Source of the DNA: an uncultured Flavobacteriales bacterium
GTDB lineage: Bacteria > Bacteroidota > Bacteroidia > Flavobacteriales_D > Crocinitomicaceae
Assembly: GCA_913056215.1 (NCBI GenBank)
Contig: CAJXMN010000018.1
Span: forward strand, 1-38,162
Direction of reading: 5' to 3'
Length of the DNA: 38,162 nucleotides
The notes under the pieces were generated by a model. That model ran no database searches and was not told the origin of the DNA. It was given only the letters and a program-made list of their open reading frames with translations. Each line of letters starts with the position of its first letter. Within the stretch, counting starts at the first letter, position 1. The position numbers and the translations under genes are program-made. Below are positions 28,399 through 36,521 of the stretch, one piece after another.

Positions 28399-29877
28399 CT
28401 ATTTGTTTTTCTTATCTTTTGGAAGGTAATAAAGTACAACGCGTGCATCTTTCTTGAGGTATTTTTTAGCAACTCGTTGAAGATCTTCACGTGTGATATC
28501 CTCATATTGTTTTAATTCTTCGTTAACACGATTGGTATTATTAAAGTAGACGTAGTTATTTGCGAGACTTTCTGCCTTTCCGGCAACAGAACTATTTGAG
28601 GAGTAAAAACGATTTTCAAATTGATTTTTAACCTTAGTAAATTCCATTTCACTTACCAATTCTGTTTGTACTTTTTCAATTTCCTTGTCAATAGCCATGC
28701 GTAGAGAGTCTACGGGCACATCTTTTGCGGCAATTCCCGCTATTGTAGCCATCCCTGGATCCTCTAATGGAAAAGCAAATGAAAATGCACTTACTGCAAG
28801 TTGCTGATCTTCTACGATTTCTTTATTGAGTCGTGCACTTGTACCTCCAGAAAGGATAGTGTTTAGCATTTGTAACGCTTTTGCATCTTCTGAGTCCTGA
28901 GCAGGTGAATGATAACCGAGGAACACCGCGGGCAACTGTATATCATCATAAACAGTATCTATCACTTCTTTCTCCAAAGCAGGCTCTTCAATAGAAGGAC
29001 GTGGAATCTCTACCTCTTTATTTGCGTATTTTGCAATTAAAACTTTTCCTTTATCAGAACTATTTGTGAAAAATTGGTCTTCATCGAACAACGCTTTAGA
29101 GTGATTATATTTTTCCTGAAATTCATCCTCACTTAAACTTAAGAAGTCACGATAGAGGTTGATTGCCTGTCCTTTTGGTATCGTACTGTAATACTTATCG
29201 ATCATTTTTTTTGTTTCTTCGATGTCAATATCGCCTGCAATTGAAAGCGTTGCGTTTGAAGGAACGTAGAATGTCCGATAAAAATCTACATAATCTTTTT
29301 CTTGAGCAGCATCTAAATGTTCCATATATCCTATTGGCGTCCAACTGTACGGGTGTTTTTCAAATAACCGATCAAACATCTCCGCCATAAAAGAACCATA
29401 AGGTTGATTATCCACGCGTTGACGCTTTTCTTCTTTAACAACTTCGCGTTGTGTTTCAATTCCTGTTTTGTCTACTTTGGCGTGTAACAGGCGTTCAGAC
29501 TCTAACCAAAGTCCCAATTCCAACTGATTAGAAGGGAAGATTTCGTAATAATAAGTGCGATCCTGAGAGGTGTTCGCATTCAACGTTCCACCATTGCGCT
29601 CTACGTATTTGTCATATTCACCGCGATCGATGTTTTGACTTCCTTCGAACATGAGGTGCTCAAAAAAGTGAGCAAATCCAGTCCGGTCAGGGTTTTCGTT
29701 CTTAGAACCTACATGGTACATAATGGATACAGCTACTATTGGTGTGCTTTTGTCTTCATGCAATATGACGTGCATACCATTATCGAGATCATATTCTACA
29801 AAGTCTATTTTGCGCTCTTGCGCTTGTGCTAGAAACCCACAGGATATTGTGAGTAATGCCAGGAAAATTCGTTTCAT
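28399..29877 (-). CDS. Catalytic M16-family zinc peptidase
   Basis: A 492-aa exported peptidase with a signal peptide (residues 1-20, ending AQA-Q). The inverted zinc motif HFFEH is at residues 70-74, and the third ligand Glu lies in REVVKEEKRQRVDNQPYG. Other family features are LDNGMHVILHEDKSTPIVAV, GSKNENPDRTGFAHF and NANTSQDRTYYYE; the C-terminal half has LSGGTSARLNKEIVEDQQLA. It should degrade peptides in the periplasm in cooperation with the non-catalytic M16 protein encoded next. ATG 29877 is preferred over the in-frame TTG 29883. Confidence 0.93.
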   Translation of the reverse strand: MKRIFLALLTISCGFLAQAQERKIDFVEYDLDNGMHVILHEDKSTPIVAVSIMYHVGSKNENPDRTGFAHFFEHLMFEGSQNIDRGEYDKYVERNGGTLNANTSQDRTYYYEIFPSNQLELGLWLESERLLHAKVDKTGIETQREVVKEEKRQRVDNQPYGSFMAEMFDRLFEKHPYSWTPIGYMEHLDAAQEKDYVDFYRTFYVPSNATLSIAGDIDIEETKKMIDKYYSTIPKGQAINLYRDFLSLSEDEFQEKYNHSKALFDEDQFFTNSSDKGKVLIAKYANKEVEIPRPSIEEPALEKEVIDTVYDDIQLPAVFLGYHSPAQDSEDAKALQMLNTILSGGTSARLNKEIVEDQQLAVSAFSFAFPLEDPGMATIAGIAAKDVPVDSLRMAIDKEIEKVQTELVSEMEFTKVKNQFENRFYSSNSSVAGKAESLANNYVYFNNTNRVNEELKQYEDITREDLQRVAKKYLKKDARVVLYYLPKDKKNK

Positions 29878-30144
29878 TTTCAAAATTTTTATTTGAGCAT
29901 AAAGAAACGAAAGTTTTTTTGATTGAACACACGGGAGTAGGACTAACGGAAAAAATTAGCTTTTGAAGGACATTAAGTATGGTTGAACTTGATGGTGGTA
30001 CCAAAAAAGTATTTAAAAGTCGTTGAAACTAGACGAAGTCTTATGCTTTGCGGTACGTAGTTCTGGTCTTAACTTATTAGATATACTGGTTTGAAGCTTC
30101 CAAATTAGTCATGTTTTTTTATTTTAGTAGAAAACTACATCGTA

Positions 30145-31212
30145 ATGCGAAGTATAACACTCTATTTCTTGTTGACTTTTTTAGTAAGTTTTCAACTAGG
30201 TGCTAAAGATACACTCATCGTTGGTTACAGTCAATCAGCTCCTTTTATTTTTGAAGAAAATGATAAATTACAAGGTCCACTGTTTTGGCTGTGGTCAAAT
30301 GTCAGTGATGATGCCGAAATCGTTTCCATATACAGAAAAACTGCTTCTGAAAACCTGCTGGAATCGTTGGAGAAGGGGCGTATCGATGTTGCCCTTTATC
30401 CCCTGACGATAACGAGTGAACGCGCTGAGGTCATCGATTTTACTGCGCCTTATTATCTGGCACATTCAGGGGTGTTAGAACGCGAATATGGAACTTGGGA
30501 GAAAGCAAAGCTCTTTTTGAGTTCATTCTTTTCACTTAATTTTTTTCGCGCTTTGCTGGCGTTGTTTTTCGTAATTCTGATTTTCGGATTTTTTGCATGG
30601 TTATTTGAACGTAAACAAAATAAGGAAGAGTTCGGTGGAGGTATAAGTGGTTTGTGGAGTGGGTTTTGGTGGTCTGCTGTAACCATGACGACAGTAGGTT
30701 ATGGGGATAAATCGCCTCGCACAACTGGCGGGAGAATTATTGCTCTTATTTGGATGTTTACAGCTGTGATGATTGTTTCTGGTTTTACAGCGAGTATTGC
30801 ATCTTCATTAACTCTGACTGAAATTGAAACGGATTCAAGCTCTATAGACAGTTATAAAGATAAGAAAATAGGCACTGTGCGCAACTCGAGTACGCTGAAA
30901 TGGATGAATGACAATTTTTTTAATAACCAGCAGTTGTACGACCGCAAGGAGGATCTCATCAAGGCATTTAGAAATGATGAGGTGGATGCGGTTTTTTATG
31001 ATATACCTCTTTTGAAAGAACTTATACGCCAAGACAAATCGAGTGATCTTAAAGTACTTCCAGTACGTTTTAATCCGCAGTTTTACGCATTCGCCTTAAA
31101 TCAAGATTTACCTTCCGAACTCAAAAAGAGAATAACGACAACATTGCTGGGATACACTGAAAATCTTGAGTGGGATGTTGTACTATCCGAATATGGATTG
31201 AGTCGTAAATAG
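30145..31212 (+). CDS. Prokaryotic ionotropic glutamate receptor-type ligand-gated potassium channel
   Basis: A 355-aa protein with the architecture of GluR0-like receptors. A signal peptide (1-20) is followed by the first half of a solute-binding domain (S1, 22-122). A membrane module comes next: M1 at about 132-155, a pore helix and the selectivity filter TTVGYGD (182-188), and M2 at about 197-220 with SGFTASIASSLT, reminiscent of the SYTANLAAF gate of animal iGluRs. The second half of the binding domain (S2, 228-350) ends the protein. Amino-acid ligand residues are in place: T90 and R93 in LTITSERAEVIDFTAPYY (alpha-carboxylate), and D286 in DAVFYDIPLL (amino group). It stands alone with a 260-bp upstream gap. 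Ion selectivity for K+ is inferred from the filter. Confidence 0.9.
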   Translation: MRSITLYFLLTFLVSFQLGAKDTLIVGYSQSAPFIFEENDKLQGPLFWLWSNVSDDAEIVSIYRKTASENLLESLEKGRIDVALYPLTITSERAEVIDFTAPYYLAHSGVLEREYGTWEKAKLFLSSFFSLNFFRALLALFFVILIFGFFAWLFERKQNKEEFGGGISGLWSGFWWSAVTMTTVGYGDKSPRTTGGRIIALIWMFTAVMIVSGFTASIASSLTLTEIETDSSSIDSYKDKKIGTVRNSSTLKWMNDNFFNNQQLYDRKEDLIKAFRNDEVDAVFYDIPLLKELIRQDKSSDLKVLPVRFNPQFYAFALNQDLPSELKKRITTTLLGYTENLEWDVVLSEYGLSRK

Positions 31213-31294: not shown

Positions 31295-32677
31295 TCAATC
31301 TTCTAACCAGTCATCCATCCCTCCAGCATAATTGAAGCTATTTTGAATCCCGTTTTTTTGCAAAATGGAGTGGGCGATGGCAGCGCGAGCTCCTGTTTGA
31401 CAATGGATGATCAGTTGTTTGTGAGTGGGTATTTGATCGATGTTTTCCTCAAGATTACCAACGAAAATATTTTTCGCACCATCAATGTGATTTTCTTTAT
31501 ATTCTGATGCACCTCTGACATCGATAACTTGGACGTCTTCGTCTTTCATCAGCTTTTTCACTTCTGATTTTTCAATAACCTTATAATTTGAAAGGTTTTC
31601 TTTCTCCCATTTCAGTAATTCATCGGGAGTGATGTAGCTCAAGTTATGATCCAAACCAATACGCATTAGTTTTCGAGCAATCTCTTTGATTTCGTCTTCT
31701 GTCGCAACTAGGGCGATGACATCATCATAATCGGCAAACCATCCCATCCAGGTAGAGAGCGATTTGTTATTGGGGATGTTAATGGTCGTTTTTAAGTGCT
31801 TTTCCCGATATTTTATGACTTTACGCGTGTCAACGATCATTTTCCCCTCTGCTTTAAGTGTGTTCCACTCTGTCTGGTTTAGGTGTTTAATCTCAGGTAT
31901 TTCGCTCAATACGGGGCGTTGCTCCTTATTGAGCTGCTTCATTTTAGCAAAATAAGTTGGCGGTTCAGGTTGGTCTTCTAAGAGTTCTTGCGTAAATTTC
32001 TTTTCATGATCGAGTAGCTGTAATGCCCAATTTCGTATCTTTTCGTAACCGATTGTAGAAGAGGGTACGGCACCTAACGCTTTTCCACAGGCTGAGCCAG
32101 ATCCATGGCCAGGCCAGACCTGCACATAATCAGGCATACTGGTAAAAACGCTCAATGATTGAAACAACGCTTTAGCTCCTTCTTCTTGAGTACCTTGAAT
32201 TCCTGCCGCCTGCTCCAACAAATCTGGACGACCAACGTCTCCAAGAAACAAATCATCTCCCGTAAAGAGCATGATTGGGGCGTCGGTAGCGGGATGATCG
32301 ATGAGCTTGTAAGAAAGATGTTCAGGAGTGTGACCAGGTGTATGAAGGGCTTCAATTGATAAGTTTCCCAAATTAATGGTGTTTCCATCTTTCAGTTTTG
32401 TACTTGAAAAGTCATATTTCCAATCTTCATCACCTTCGTCAGAAACAAAAATTTCCGCACCAGTAGCATGGGCAAGTTCCCGAGATCCACAGAGAAAATC
32501 AGCATGAATATGCGTTTCCAACACTTTGGTGATTTTCAGCTGATTTTTCTCCGCTATCTCTAAATACGTATCGATATCCCTTTTGGGGTCTATGACAGCA
32601 GCTACTCCTCCTGACTGACAACCGATAACGTAACTTGCTTGAGCTAAAGTCTCATCATAAACGCGCTCAAAAAACAT
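31295..32677 (-). CDS. MBL-fold persulfide dioxygenase-like protein with tandem rhodanese domains
   Basis: A 460-aa cytoplasmic fusion. Residues 1-250 are a metallo-beta-lactamase domain of the ETHE1/PDO type, with the iron-binding HIHADFLCGSREL, HTPGHTPEHLSY, FTGDDLFLGDVGRPDLL and VWPGHGSGSACGKALG. The family oxidises glutathione persulfide to sulfite. Two rhodanese-like domains follow: the first (about 265-355) lacks a catalytic Cys, and the second (about 372-460) has the active-site loop HCQTGARA with Cys426. Together they fit sulfide and persulfide detoxification. The gene starts 3 bp after the HPF-like gene, so the two share an operon. Confidence 0.88.
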   Translation of the reverse strand: MFFERVYDETLAQASYVIGCQSGGVAAVIDPKRDIDTYLEIAEKNQLKITKVLETHIHADFLCGSRELAHATGAEIFVSDEGDEDWKYDFSSTKLKDGNTINLGNLSIEALHTPGHTPEHLSYKLIDHPATDAPIMLFTGDDLFLGDVGRPDLLEQAAGIQGTQEEGAKALFQSLSVFTSMPDYVQVWPGHGSGSACGKALGAVPSSTIGYEKIRNWALQLLDHEKKFTQELLEDQPEPPTYFAKMKQLNKEQRPVLSEIPEIKHLNQTEWNTLKAEGKMIVDTRKVIKYREKHLKTTINIPNNKSLSTWMGWFADYDDVIALVATEDEIKEIARKLMRIGLDHNLSYITPDELLKWEKENLSNYKVIEKSEVKKLMKDEDVQVIDVRGASEYKENHIDGAKNIFVGNLEENIDQIPTHKQLIIHCQTGARAAIAHSILQKNGIQNSFNYAGGMDDWLED

Positions 32678-33245: not shown

Positions 33246-34832
33246 TTAATCATTGTCTGAACTTTCGAGAGGCACACCTTGAAGCGTTTTAAAAATAAAA
33301 TCATAAGTTGTTCCTGTTGAAGTTTTATTTAGTTGGAAATCGCCTTCTAGTTGATCTGTGAAAATTTCAATGAGTGACGATCCGAAATAATCGCTCGATT
33401 CATTTTCTTTCCATCGACCATTGTCTGCATACGTAAGCTCAATTCCGATTTTAAGTGACTGTTTCACATCAATAGTTATGAGCGGTTGATCCTGGTCATC
33501 AAAAGCGTACTTCACACTGTTGGTAATTAATTCATTCAAAATAAGCGCCAGCGGAACAATGCGCTCCATGTTAATTAAAATACGATCTCCCGTTATTTTT
33601 ATTTGGGGTTGTTTGTCGTGTTGAAATTGGGCACAGATATCCTGATAAAGTGAATGAATGTATTCTCGTAACTGTACTTTATTAACGTCAGGAGATTTAT
33701 ATATGCGATCGTGCACGAGAGCAATGGTTTTGATTCTTTCGACGGCCTCTTTTAATGTTTTGGATGCAATTTCGTCTTTAACAACATCTGACTGTATGCG
33801 CATCATACTCGATACGATTTGCAAATTGTTCTTCACCCGATGATGAATTTCTTGAAGGAGTATTTTTTTCTCTTCATCTTTCTGTTTACTTGCTACCAGT
33901 GACTCTTTCAGTTGCTGCTCAGTCGATTTCTTGCGCTTGATGATTTTACGCATGACGTTATTCCAATAATAAAGGATACAGAGGCAAACGACGATGGCAG
34001 AGATGATAACGACTAACCAAATCATAAATTGGCGCGAGAAGGAGGTGCCACTATCTTGTGTAATCCATTTTTTACGTATCTCATGTTTTTGATGCGCGGG
34101 GATATTTATGAGAACCTTATCAATGATATCGCGAAAAGTGCTCCATTCGGGGTTTACTGCAAATCCGATTTTGGTATCGCCAAACGGTGTAACACCAGCA
34201 ATTTGAAGTTCGGAATAGCCGTGGTGATTGAAATAGTATTTTACGACATTAAGGTTTCCTATAAAAGCAGTTGTTTTTCCACTCAATACATCATCCAGGC
34301 AAGCAGCAATATTTTTTTTTCTCTTAATCTCAACATCGGGAAATTTGCGCTTAATTAATTCAATGGTGTAATAATTTTTGGAGAGTGAGATAGTTTCTCC
34401 TTTTAAGTCTTCTAGATTACCGTAATACGAACCATTCTTTTTAGTCACGATGACTAGTGGATCAGAGATGTACGGTTTGGAAAACAAGAAATCCTTCTCA
34501 CGATTTGGTGTCATGGCACATGAAGGAACTACTTTTATCGTACCATTGAGCAATCCATTCATTGATTCATTCCAAGAGAGGTCGGGAAGGGGGCGCATGT
34601 CAATACCCGTTTTTTCTTCAATAATTTTTACATATTCTCCTACAATCCCGGCATACTCACCGTCTTTGAAAACTTCATAAGGTTCCCAACGCGGTTCGTA
34701 TCCAAACTGTATCACGGGATGCTTTTCGAGCCAGTGCTGCTCTTTAGGCGTGAATTCAATAGTTTGTGCTTGAGCGCATAACCCCTGCCAGTAGATCAGA
34801 ACGAGGAAATAGTATAAAAGGTGCTTAGTCAA
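33246..34832 (-). CDS. Sensor histidine kinase with a periplasmic amino-acid-binding-type domain
   Basis: A 528-aa receptor kinase. A signal peptide (1-21) precedes a solute-binding family 3 domain (about 27-260) with the typical VPSCAMTPNREKDFLFSKPY, where the Arg-Glu-Lys-Asp stretch corresponds to the ligand Arg region, and ATTAFIG-like S2 features (KTTAFIGNLNVVKYYF). A single TM helix follows (IWLVVIISAIVVCLCILYYW, about 272-292), then a HisKA_2-type phosphoacceptor domain EIHHRVKNNLQIVSSMMRIQ, and a HATPase with LALILNELITNSVKYAF (N box) and LTYADNGRW. The G2 box is present as FGSSLIEIFTDQL. It starts with TTG. No response regulator or transporter gene is adjacent, so the output partner is unknown. 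Confidence 0.87.
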   Translation of the reverse strand: MTKHLLYYFLVLIYWQGLCAQAQTIEFTPKEQHWLEKHPVIQFGYEPRWEPYEVFKDGEYAGIVGEYVKIIEEKTGIDMRPLPDLSWNESMNGLLNGTIKVVPSCAMTPNREKDFLFSKPYISDPLVIVTKKNGSYYGNLEDLKGETISLSKNYYTIELIKRKFPDVEIKRKKNIAACLDDVLSGKTTAFIGNLNVVKYYFNHHGYSELQIAGVTPFGDTKIGFAVNPEWSTFRDIIDKVLINIPAHQKHEIRKKWITQDSGTSFSRQFMIWLVVIISAIVVCLCILYYWNNVMRKIIKRKKSTEQQLKESLVASKQKDEEKKILLQEIHHRVKNNLQIVSSMMRIQSDVVKDEIASKTLKEAVERIKTIALVHDRIYKSPDVNKVQLREYIHSLYQDICAQFQHDKQPQIKITGDRILINMERIVPLALILNELITNSVKYAFDDQDQPLITIDVKQSLKIGIELTYADNGRWKENESSDYFGSSLIEIFTDQLEGDFQLNKTSTGTTYDFIFKTLQGVPLESSDND

Positions 34833-35792: not shown

Positions 35793-36521
35793 ATGTTTAT
35801 TTCACTAAATAATGGGTGCAATATTCCTGCCGAGAAATTGCCTTTTGAACTTTTTGGTCTGTGTCTGCAAGAACCTATGGCATGGGTGACGAATTGGATT
35901 ATTGCTGCAACGGCTTTTTTCTTATACTTTCGTTTTAAACCTGTAGAAAATACTTTTCAAAAGCACTGGAAGCTTTTTTATCTTTATTTCGGATTGAGTA
36001 CATTTTTTAGCGCGTTTGGTCATGTGTTTTTTATGTATTTCGGTGTTTACGGGAAATATCCTACCTGGATTCTGGGAATGATAGCCGCCTATCATGTGGG
36101 GACAGCTATGATTAGTTTAAATATTCTGCCTAGTCGTGTAAAACGTACGTTTAAGTATATTTTGTCGACCAAATTGATTGTTCTGATGGTGATAGCTATT
36201 GTGATGAAAAATTTTGTTTTCGTAATGGCAGATGCGACCCTCACTTATTTGTTTTTCTGTCTAGGGTTAGGAATTCATTATTGGCGAAAAGGTATTCAAT
36301 CCTTCAAGTATACGGTGATAGCTGTATTGATTTTGTTTCCGTCCATTTTTATATTTACGCTGCAGTTTAATCCACATGTATGGTTTAACAAGGATGATTT
36401 GAGTCATGTCCTAATGGCCATGACAATTGTTTTCTTTTATTTAGGTGTTTCCAGACTCAATGAAATTGAATTGGAAAGAATTTTATCCTTAAATAAATTT
36501 AAATATGTCGGCAAACAATAA
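35793..36521 (+). CDS. Seven-TM membrane protein of unknown function
   Basis: A 242-aa protein with about seven hydrophobic helices and a short basic tail ([10 protein letters not shown]). Polar residues sit inside helices in an ordered way: [12 protein letters not shown] at the start, [28 protein letters not shown], and [13 protein letters not shown] near the end. Ser-His and His residues in such positions are a feature of CREST membrane hydrolases (ceramidase/haemolysin III-like), but the full set is not clearly present, so this is only a hint. A DUF6962-like flavobacterial family is another possibility. It overlaps the start of smpB by 17 bp and is probably co-translated with it. Confidence 0.6.

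Follow-up and report, generated by a model that had tools for sequence, protein, structure and literature searches.

According to PMC13099474 and PMC6385376, GluR0 of Synechocystis PCC 6803 (Slr1257; structures 1ii5 and 1iit) is built in the order S1-M1-P-M2-S2, carries a K+ selectivity filter, and has neither M4 nor an amino-terminal domain. In the work of Zhang et al. 2026 (PMC13099474), GluR0 is reported to rescue E. coli LB2003 under K+ limitation and, when the cells shrink after KCl upshock, to slow one phase of the shrinkage. It is also reported to have an inverted topology, with both the N and C termini outside (some fusions not being statistically significant), and to require its soluble domains. 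A 2016 review (PMC5127831) names GluR0 as the single bacterial glutamate-activated K+ channel then known, and no second one was found in the literature consulted alongside that review. Group 1 of Ger et al. 2010 (PMC2950845) comprises 12 proteins in which two binding halves surround two transmembrane helices and a K+ filter, with the S1 arginine and the S2 aspartate totally conserved. Animal AMPA and NMDA receptors share the same fold in the order S1-M1-P-M3-S2, with an amino-terminal domain and M4 and without a K+ filter.

The window analyzed here, meaning the whole 38,162-nt stretch of DNA, encodes at 30145-31212 a single-gene relative of these brain receptors in a marine-type bacterium. The reading frame starts with ATG and runs for 355 amino acids without interruption, and its product has the GluR0 order of parts with both binding-domain halves, two transmembrane helices, and the pore loop in one chain, as seen by Pfam, profile alignment, structural model, and hydropathy alike (Table 1). 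The original prediction of a solute-binding domain split by a pore module is thereby borne out, with the K+ filter and the M2 motif lying where it had placed them. In contrast to the animal receptors, the protein has a K+ filter and lacks the amino-terminal domain and M4. It shares each of the Group 1 features given above, including the filter, the S1 arginine, and the S2 aspartate, and extends a class with known cyanobacterial members without defining a new one. Five Pfam models exceed their curated cut-offs: SBP_bac_3 (residues 24-259, E 7.2e-15), Lig_chan (residues 140-241, E 8e-15), Ion_trans_2 (residues 141-222, E 1.7e-14), Ion_trans, and Lig_chan-Glu_bd (30.9 bits; cut-off, 30); a Phosphonate-bd match (PF12974) fell below its own cut-off and was set aside. 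Hydropathy shows a hydrophobic N-terminus and Lys/Arg residues between M1 and M2, a pattern compatible with a signal peptide and an inverted topology. We consider it very probable that this gene encodes a GluR0-type prokaryotic ionotropic glutamate receptor, with an exported clamshell, an inverted and tetrameric K+ pore, and gating by amino acids.

Table 1. Features of the receptor gene and of its neighbors in the window; A2 is the 77-row alignment described in the text.
Feature	Coordinates	Strand	Basis
M16-type peptidase, left neighbor, divergent from receptor	28399-29883	-	Pfam
GluR0-type ionotropic glutamate receptor homolog	30145..31212	+	Sequence, Pfam, profile alignment, predicted fold
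Putative signal peptide, residues 1-22, probable cleavage near A20	30145..30210	+	Model helix 2-16, hydropathy
S1 clamshell half, residues 23-118	30211..30498	+	SBP_bac_3 from residue 24; structural alignment to 1ii5, 2pyy
T88, equivalent of GluA2 contact threonine T480	30406..30408	+	GluA2 alignment; T 68, S 8, Y 1 of 77 rows
R93, alpha-carboxylate arginine	30421..30423	+	R in 76/77 rows of A2; 40/40 rows of second set
M1 transmembrane helix, residues 131-155	30535..30609	+	Model helix 131-155; hydropathy peak
Pore helix, residues 166-181	30640..30687	+	AlphaFold2 model (helix 166-182)
K+ selectivity filter TTVGYGD, residues 182-188	30688..30708	+	Sequence; Ion_trans_2 match 141-222
M2 pore-lining helix, residues 194-230, continuing into S2 linker	30724..30834	+	Model helix
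M2 gate-like motif SGFTASIASS, residues 212-221	30778..30807	+	Aligned with 'issytanlaafltv' of GluA2
S2 clamshell half, residues 228-355	30826..31209	+	S2 alone: best PDB match GluR0 (1iit/1ii5), E 1.2e-5
D286, alpha-amino-group aspartate	31000..31002	+	D in 77/77 rows of A2; 39/40 rows of second set
Lactamase_B + Rhodanese gene, right neighbor, convergent with receptor	31295-32677	-	Pfam
Sensor histidine kinase (HisKA_2) + SBP_bac_3, two genes from the convergent neighbor	33246-34832	-	Pfam
DUF6962 protein, overlaps smpB start	35793-36521	+	Pfam

An AlphaFold2 model built on alignment A2 has a mean pLDDT of 91.2 and a pTM of 0.76. In this model, the S1 and S2 halves form the clamshell anticipated for this protein and superpose (VIA-align 2) on the GluR0 glutamate complex 1ii5 with Z 27.0 and rmsd 2.0 over 211 residues; at 25% over the aligned clamshell, this match has the top identity among the 50 matches listed, between a Bacteroidota host on one side and a cyanobacterium on the other. 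NpGluR0 of Nostoc punctiforme (2pyy) is equally close (Z 27.1, rmsd 2.2, 209 residues, 21% identity), as are glutamine-binding proteins, of which an engineered GlnBP reaches the best Z, 27.7. Since these Z-scores are tied, the clamshell alone cannot separate a receptor from a binding protein, and it is the pore together with the whole-chain evidence that decides between the two. In a whole-chain Foldseek search, the 50 matches listed are AMPA-receptor chains aligned across both the ligand-binding and transmembrane domains (best E 9e-19, 364-388 alignment columns), at a TM-score by query of just 0.48-0.65.

For a profile of 14 relatives, the best PDB match is 6h30, a glutamine-binding protein of tandem build (E 1e-52), followed by NpGluR0 (2pyy, E 9.4e-41) with both halves aligned, and animal GluA2 and plant GLR3.4 are each aligned in one stretch (query 22-346, E 3.3e-35, and 75-354, E 5.1e-36, respectively). 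When the halves are searched separately, S2 finds Synechocystis GluR0 as its first PDB match, and the top matches of S1 are glutamine-binding proteins (6h30 at E 3.3e-8), with NpGluR0 and GluR0 further down at 2e-4 and 4.4e-4.

Conservation of the ligand site was read from alignment A2, whose 77 rows are the 30145-31212 protein and 76 of 80 fetched loci, these being the best 80 of at least 561 relatives; the four dropped loci were one at a contig end (L099), one with its frame broken after 79 residues (L114), and two with short starts (L122 and L141). Because AVTMTTVG was among the two patterns used for fetching, the invariance of the filter in A2 was not used as evidence. A second set of 40 rows was not selected on the filter and came from whole-protein or Lig_chan searches, excluding a frame with a stop (L043) and a second copy of the 30145-31212 locus (L055); here the arginine is present in 40 of 40 rows, the aspartate in 39, and a GYGD filter in 37. 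Within M2, S212, A216, and I218 are invariant in the 77 rows of A2.

The two charged anchors named in the original prediction, R93 and D286, are thus kept both in this protein and across its relatives. The third, T90, fared less well. It is indeed a threonine and conserved (73 of the 77 rows), but the classical contact threonine is T88 by alignment to GluA2, in which we take T480 to be the contact residue, five positions before R485; T88 lies five residues before R93, and T90 lies three before it. In a profile alignment, NpGluR0 has serine at the T88 position and threonine at that of T90. In all, the protein retains P86, T88, R93, S248, D286, and Y314. What it does not retain is the aromatic residue of the lid. 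The residue after the glycine that matches G44 is phenylalanine in NpGluR0 and tyrosine in GluA2, and by alignment P45 replaces this aromatic lid in the 30145-31212 protein and its closest relatives, with no aromatic residue at this column in any of the 77 rows of A2. With the anchor residues kept and the lid aromatic absent, an alpha-amino acid is likely to be the ligand, and glutamate is not assured; recognition of the side chain may differ, and the ligand may be an amino acid other than glutamate.

If the missing lid is given more weight, the protein could be a K+ channel of the receptor type that binds something other than an alpha-amino acid, or one gated without any ligand as a constitutive or tension-gated leak, the clamshell serving mainly for assembly. 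The authors of the GluR0 study suggest that the channel may respond to membrane tension (PMC13099474), and 2 relatives have lost anchor residues behind an intact K+ filter: L136 has histidine at the R93 column, and L179 (G495:C1:466464-467459) has both the arginine and aspartate columns changed. A pore of this kind can evidently persist without an amino-acid site. However, all 6 of the residues listed above are kept in the 30145-31212 protein, and the near-invariance of R93 and the invariance of D286 in A2 suggest that amino-acid binding is under selection throughout the clade, so we regard this alternative as unlikely.

In a tree of the pore module, 45 receptor-type rows, the 30145-31212 protein among them, split from 16 K-channel-type rows with support of 100/99 and in 100% of 200 bootstrap trees. 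The tree has 61 rows and as few as 110 columns, its bootstrap did not converge, and the split is one where long branches come together. The rows were picked by hand from 25 of 40 receptor loci, 19 of 80 named loci, and 16 of 20 K-channel-type loci, and the K-channel label was assigned from matches covering the pore and confirmed by Pfam for L002 and L003. The placement with receptor-type pores is the one that the original prediction had called for, and the S1/S2 architecture independently points the same way. That the gene is instead an ordinary K+ channel with an acquired, unrelated periplasmic domain, or an ABC binding protein misread as a channel, is highly improbable: Ion_trans_2 does match the pore, S1 by itself does resemble glutamine-binding proteins, and the best NCBIfam model is one for amino-acid ABC binding proteins (TIGR01096, at 60.3 bits far under its cut-off of 256.35), but the tree sets the protein apart from the 16 K-channel rows, S1 and S2 flank the pore within one reading frame, GluA2 and GLR3.4 are each aligned in one stretch, and no ABC transporter component was found among the 6-7 neighbors scanned with Pfam around 30145-31212. 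A Kch-type K+ channel is contradicted by a pore that falls outside the K channels and by the presence of S1 and S2, and a binding protein of an amino-acid ABC transporter is contradicted by the pore module inside the binding domain.

Returning to the GluR0-type receptor, the protein most likely functions as a K+ channel that is gated by amino acids and has the opposite orientation to KcsA. By analogy with GluR0 and the animal receptors, from which its tetrameric state, orientation, gating, and K+ selectivity are extrapolated, the putative signal peptide would export S1, so that the two halves, S1 and S2, could assemble into a periplasmic clamshell for amino acids. M1, the pore loop, and M2 would contribute one fourth of a K+ pore, with the filter loop inserted from the cytoplasm, the reverse of the arrangement in KcsA. 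Four subunits would make up one channel. An alpha-amino acid would be held with its carboxylate on R93 and T88 and its amino group on D286, and its binding would close the clamshell, pull on the end of M2, and open the pore to K+. The least certain step is the physiological role, which, on the model of the 2026 GluR0 study (PMC13099474), might be a fast K+ flux triggered by amino acids, either released or present in the environment, when ionic or osmotic conditions change. Such a flux might serve volume control, membrane-potential signaling, or chemosensing.

The gene neighborhood offers no constant partner. Farther to the right of the receptor lie genes for the sensor kinase, DUF6962, SmpB, and SBF (Pfam). 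In 3 genomes of the same genus (G086, G067, and G006), two peptidase genes of the M16 type lie to one side of the receptor, and genes of the HPF, RecR, DUF6962, SmpB, and SBF types lie to the other, the DUF6962 gene again adjoining smpB; HPF and RecR were named by eye, and the receptor-adjacent M16 gene, DUF6962, SmpB, and SBF by Pfam. A fourth genome (G043) retains the peptidase side alone. None of these conserved neighbors occurs in the other 12 of the 16 regions around relatives, 3 of which surround a second receptor type of the same genus and 2 of which (L155 and L162) each match a single unrelated gene from another part of the window. With gene order kept only within the genus across these 16 regions, we reject a conserved operon partner as a functional linkage. 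The sensor kinase with an SBP_bac_3 domain was likewise rejected as a constant partner, since it adjoins the receptor in G086 (55% identity) and has no match in the other 15 regions by ORF scan. In the whole genome, SBP_bac_3 is found in 4 proteins, namely this kinase, the receptor, and 2 proteins with a transglycosylase SLT domain that resemble MltF-type enzymes. No stand-alone SBP_bac_3 amino-acid ABC binding protein was found in the 192-contig assembly, and there is thus little sign that the receptor branched off from an uptake system in this genome.

Receptors of this type had been predicted to be rare in Bacteroidota, which is too strong: they are patchily distributed, not rare. Within the GTDB family, long matches (starting at query residue 23 or earlier, ending at 338 or later, E 2.6e-43 or better) occur in 12 of 100 genomes, the source genome included (G000, G086, G067, G006, G043, G042, G005, G049, G094, G056, G015, and G024), and a wider count reaches 65 of 100 by adding short matches, mostly to the pore alone. 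Identity is 47-63% across nearly the full length in 7 of the 99 other family genomes. A two-row receptor profile matches 19 of 299 genomes of the order at E 1e-20, and 34 of 395 genomes across the phylum exceed the Lig_chan cut-off (48 at E 0.001), a cut-off passed by none of 14 control genomes. A scan of GTDB representatives confirmed at least 561 relatives among at least 588 candidates. Judged by their titles, the best 80 of these include 67 from Bacteroidota, 3 from Melioribacteraceae/Ignavibacteriae, and 9 from other phyla (Idiomarina, Salinisphaera, Alcanivorax, Alteromonas, two Desulfobulbaceae, two myxobacterial, and one Planctomycetota), a list biased toward Bacteroidota because Bacteroidota led the query alignment. 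Among them are Brumimicrobium glaciale (59% identity) and B. aurantiacum (55-54%). No paper on a GluR0-type receptor in Bacteroidota appeared among the titles listed in searches of an open-access collection, and the terms Bacteroid, Cytophaga, Flavobacter, Chlorobi, and Microscilla are all absent from the main text of Ger et al. 2010 (PMC2950845).

The 30145-31212 protein by itself changes no known principle. As a well-formed example from a non-photosynthetic bacterium, it provides an independent system in which to ask what bacteria use these receptors for, and how an inverted K+ channel gave rise to the animal receptors. It is of interest chiefly because its group has received little study and varies naturally in both pore and binding site. 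It is possible, and we offer this only tentatively, that the Bacteroidota receptors are a separate, unstudied radiation of channels gated by an amino acid particular to them, as the P45 substitution in the lid might indicate, and that this radiation includes members of the same bacterial family, in two genomes, that have lost the K+ filter (VGGTDN and VGGADN). If this is the case, a single family would allow the transition from K+-selective to non-K+ receptor pores to be followed step by step.

The two family members in question, L014 (G015:C8:11405-12406) and L015 (G024:C46:3234-4238), retain the S1 arginine and S2 aspartate and carry VGGTDNKGP and VGGADNKGP, respectively, in place of the K+ filter, with GYGD present in the other 18 of the 20 loci compared. 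Both have tyrosine at the P45 column (as L165 and L164, respectively), and they pair up on long branches within the receptor side of the pore tree. They are possibly non-K+ receptor channels.

A second, more distant receptor type with a GYGD filter is represented by L012, L013, L063, and a copy at G067:C3:169388-170344. It shares 32-34% identity with the 30145-31212 protein (L012, L013, and the G067 copy), and its M2 reads MVAGIAST in the genus of that protein and MIAGIAST in L063. One genome, G067, contains both receptor types. Another receptor-like locus, L061 (G378:C62), has IGSSDGYPQSP in place of the K+ filter and sits on a very long branch of the pore tree.
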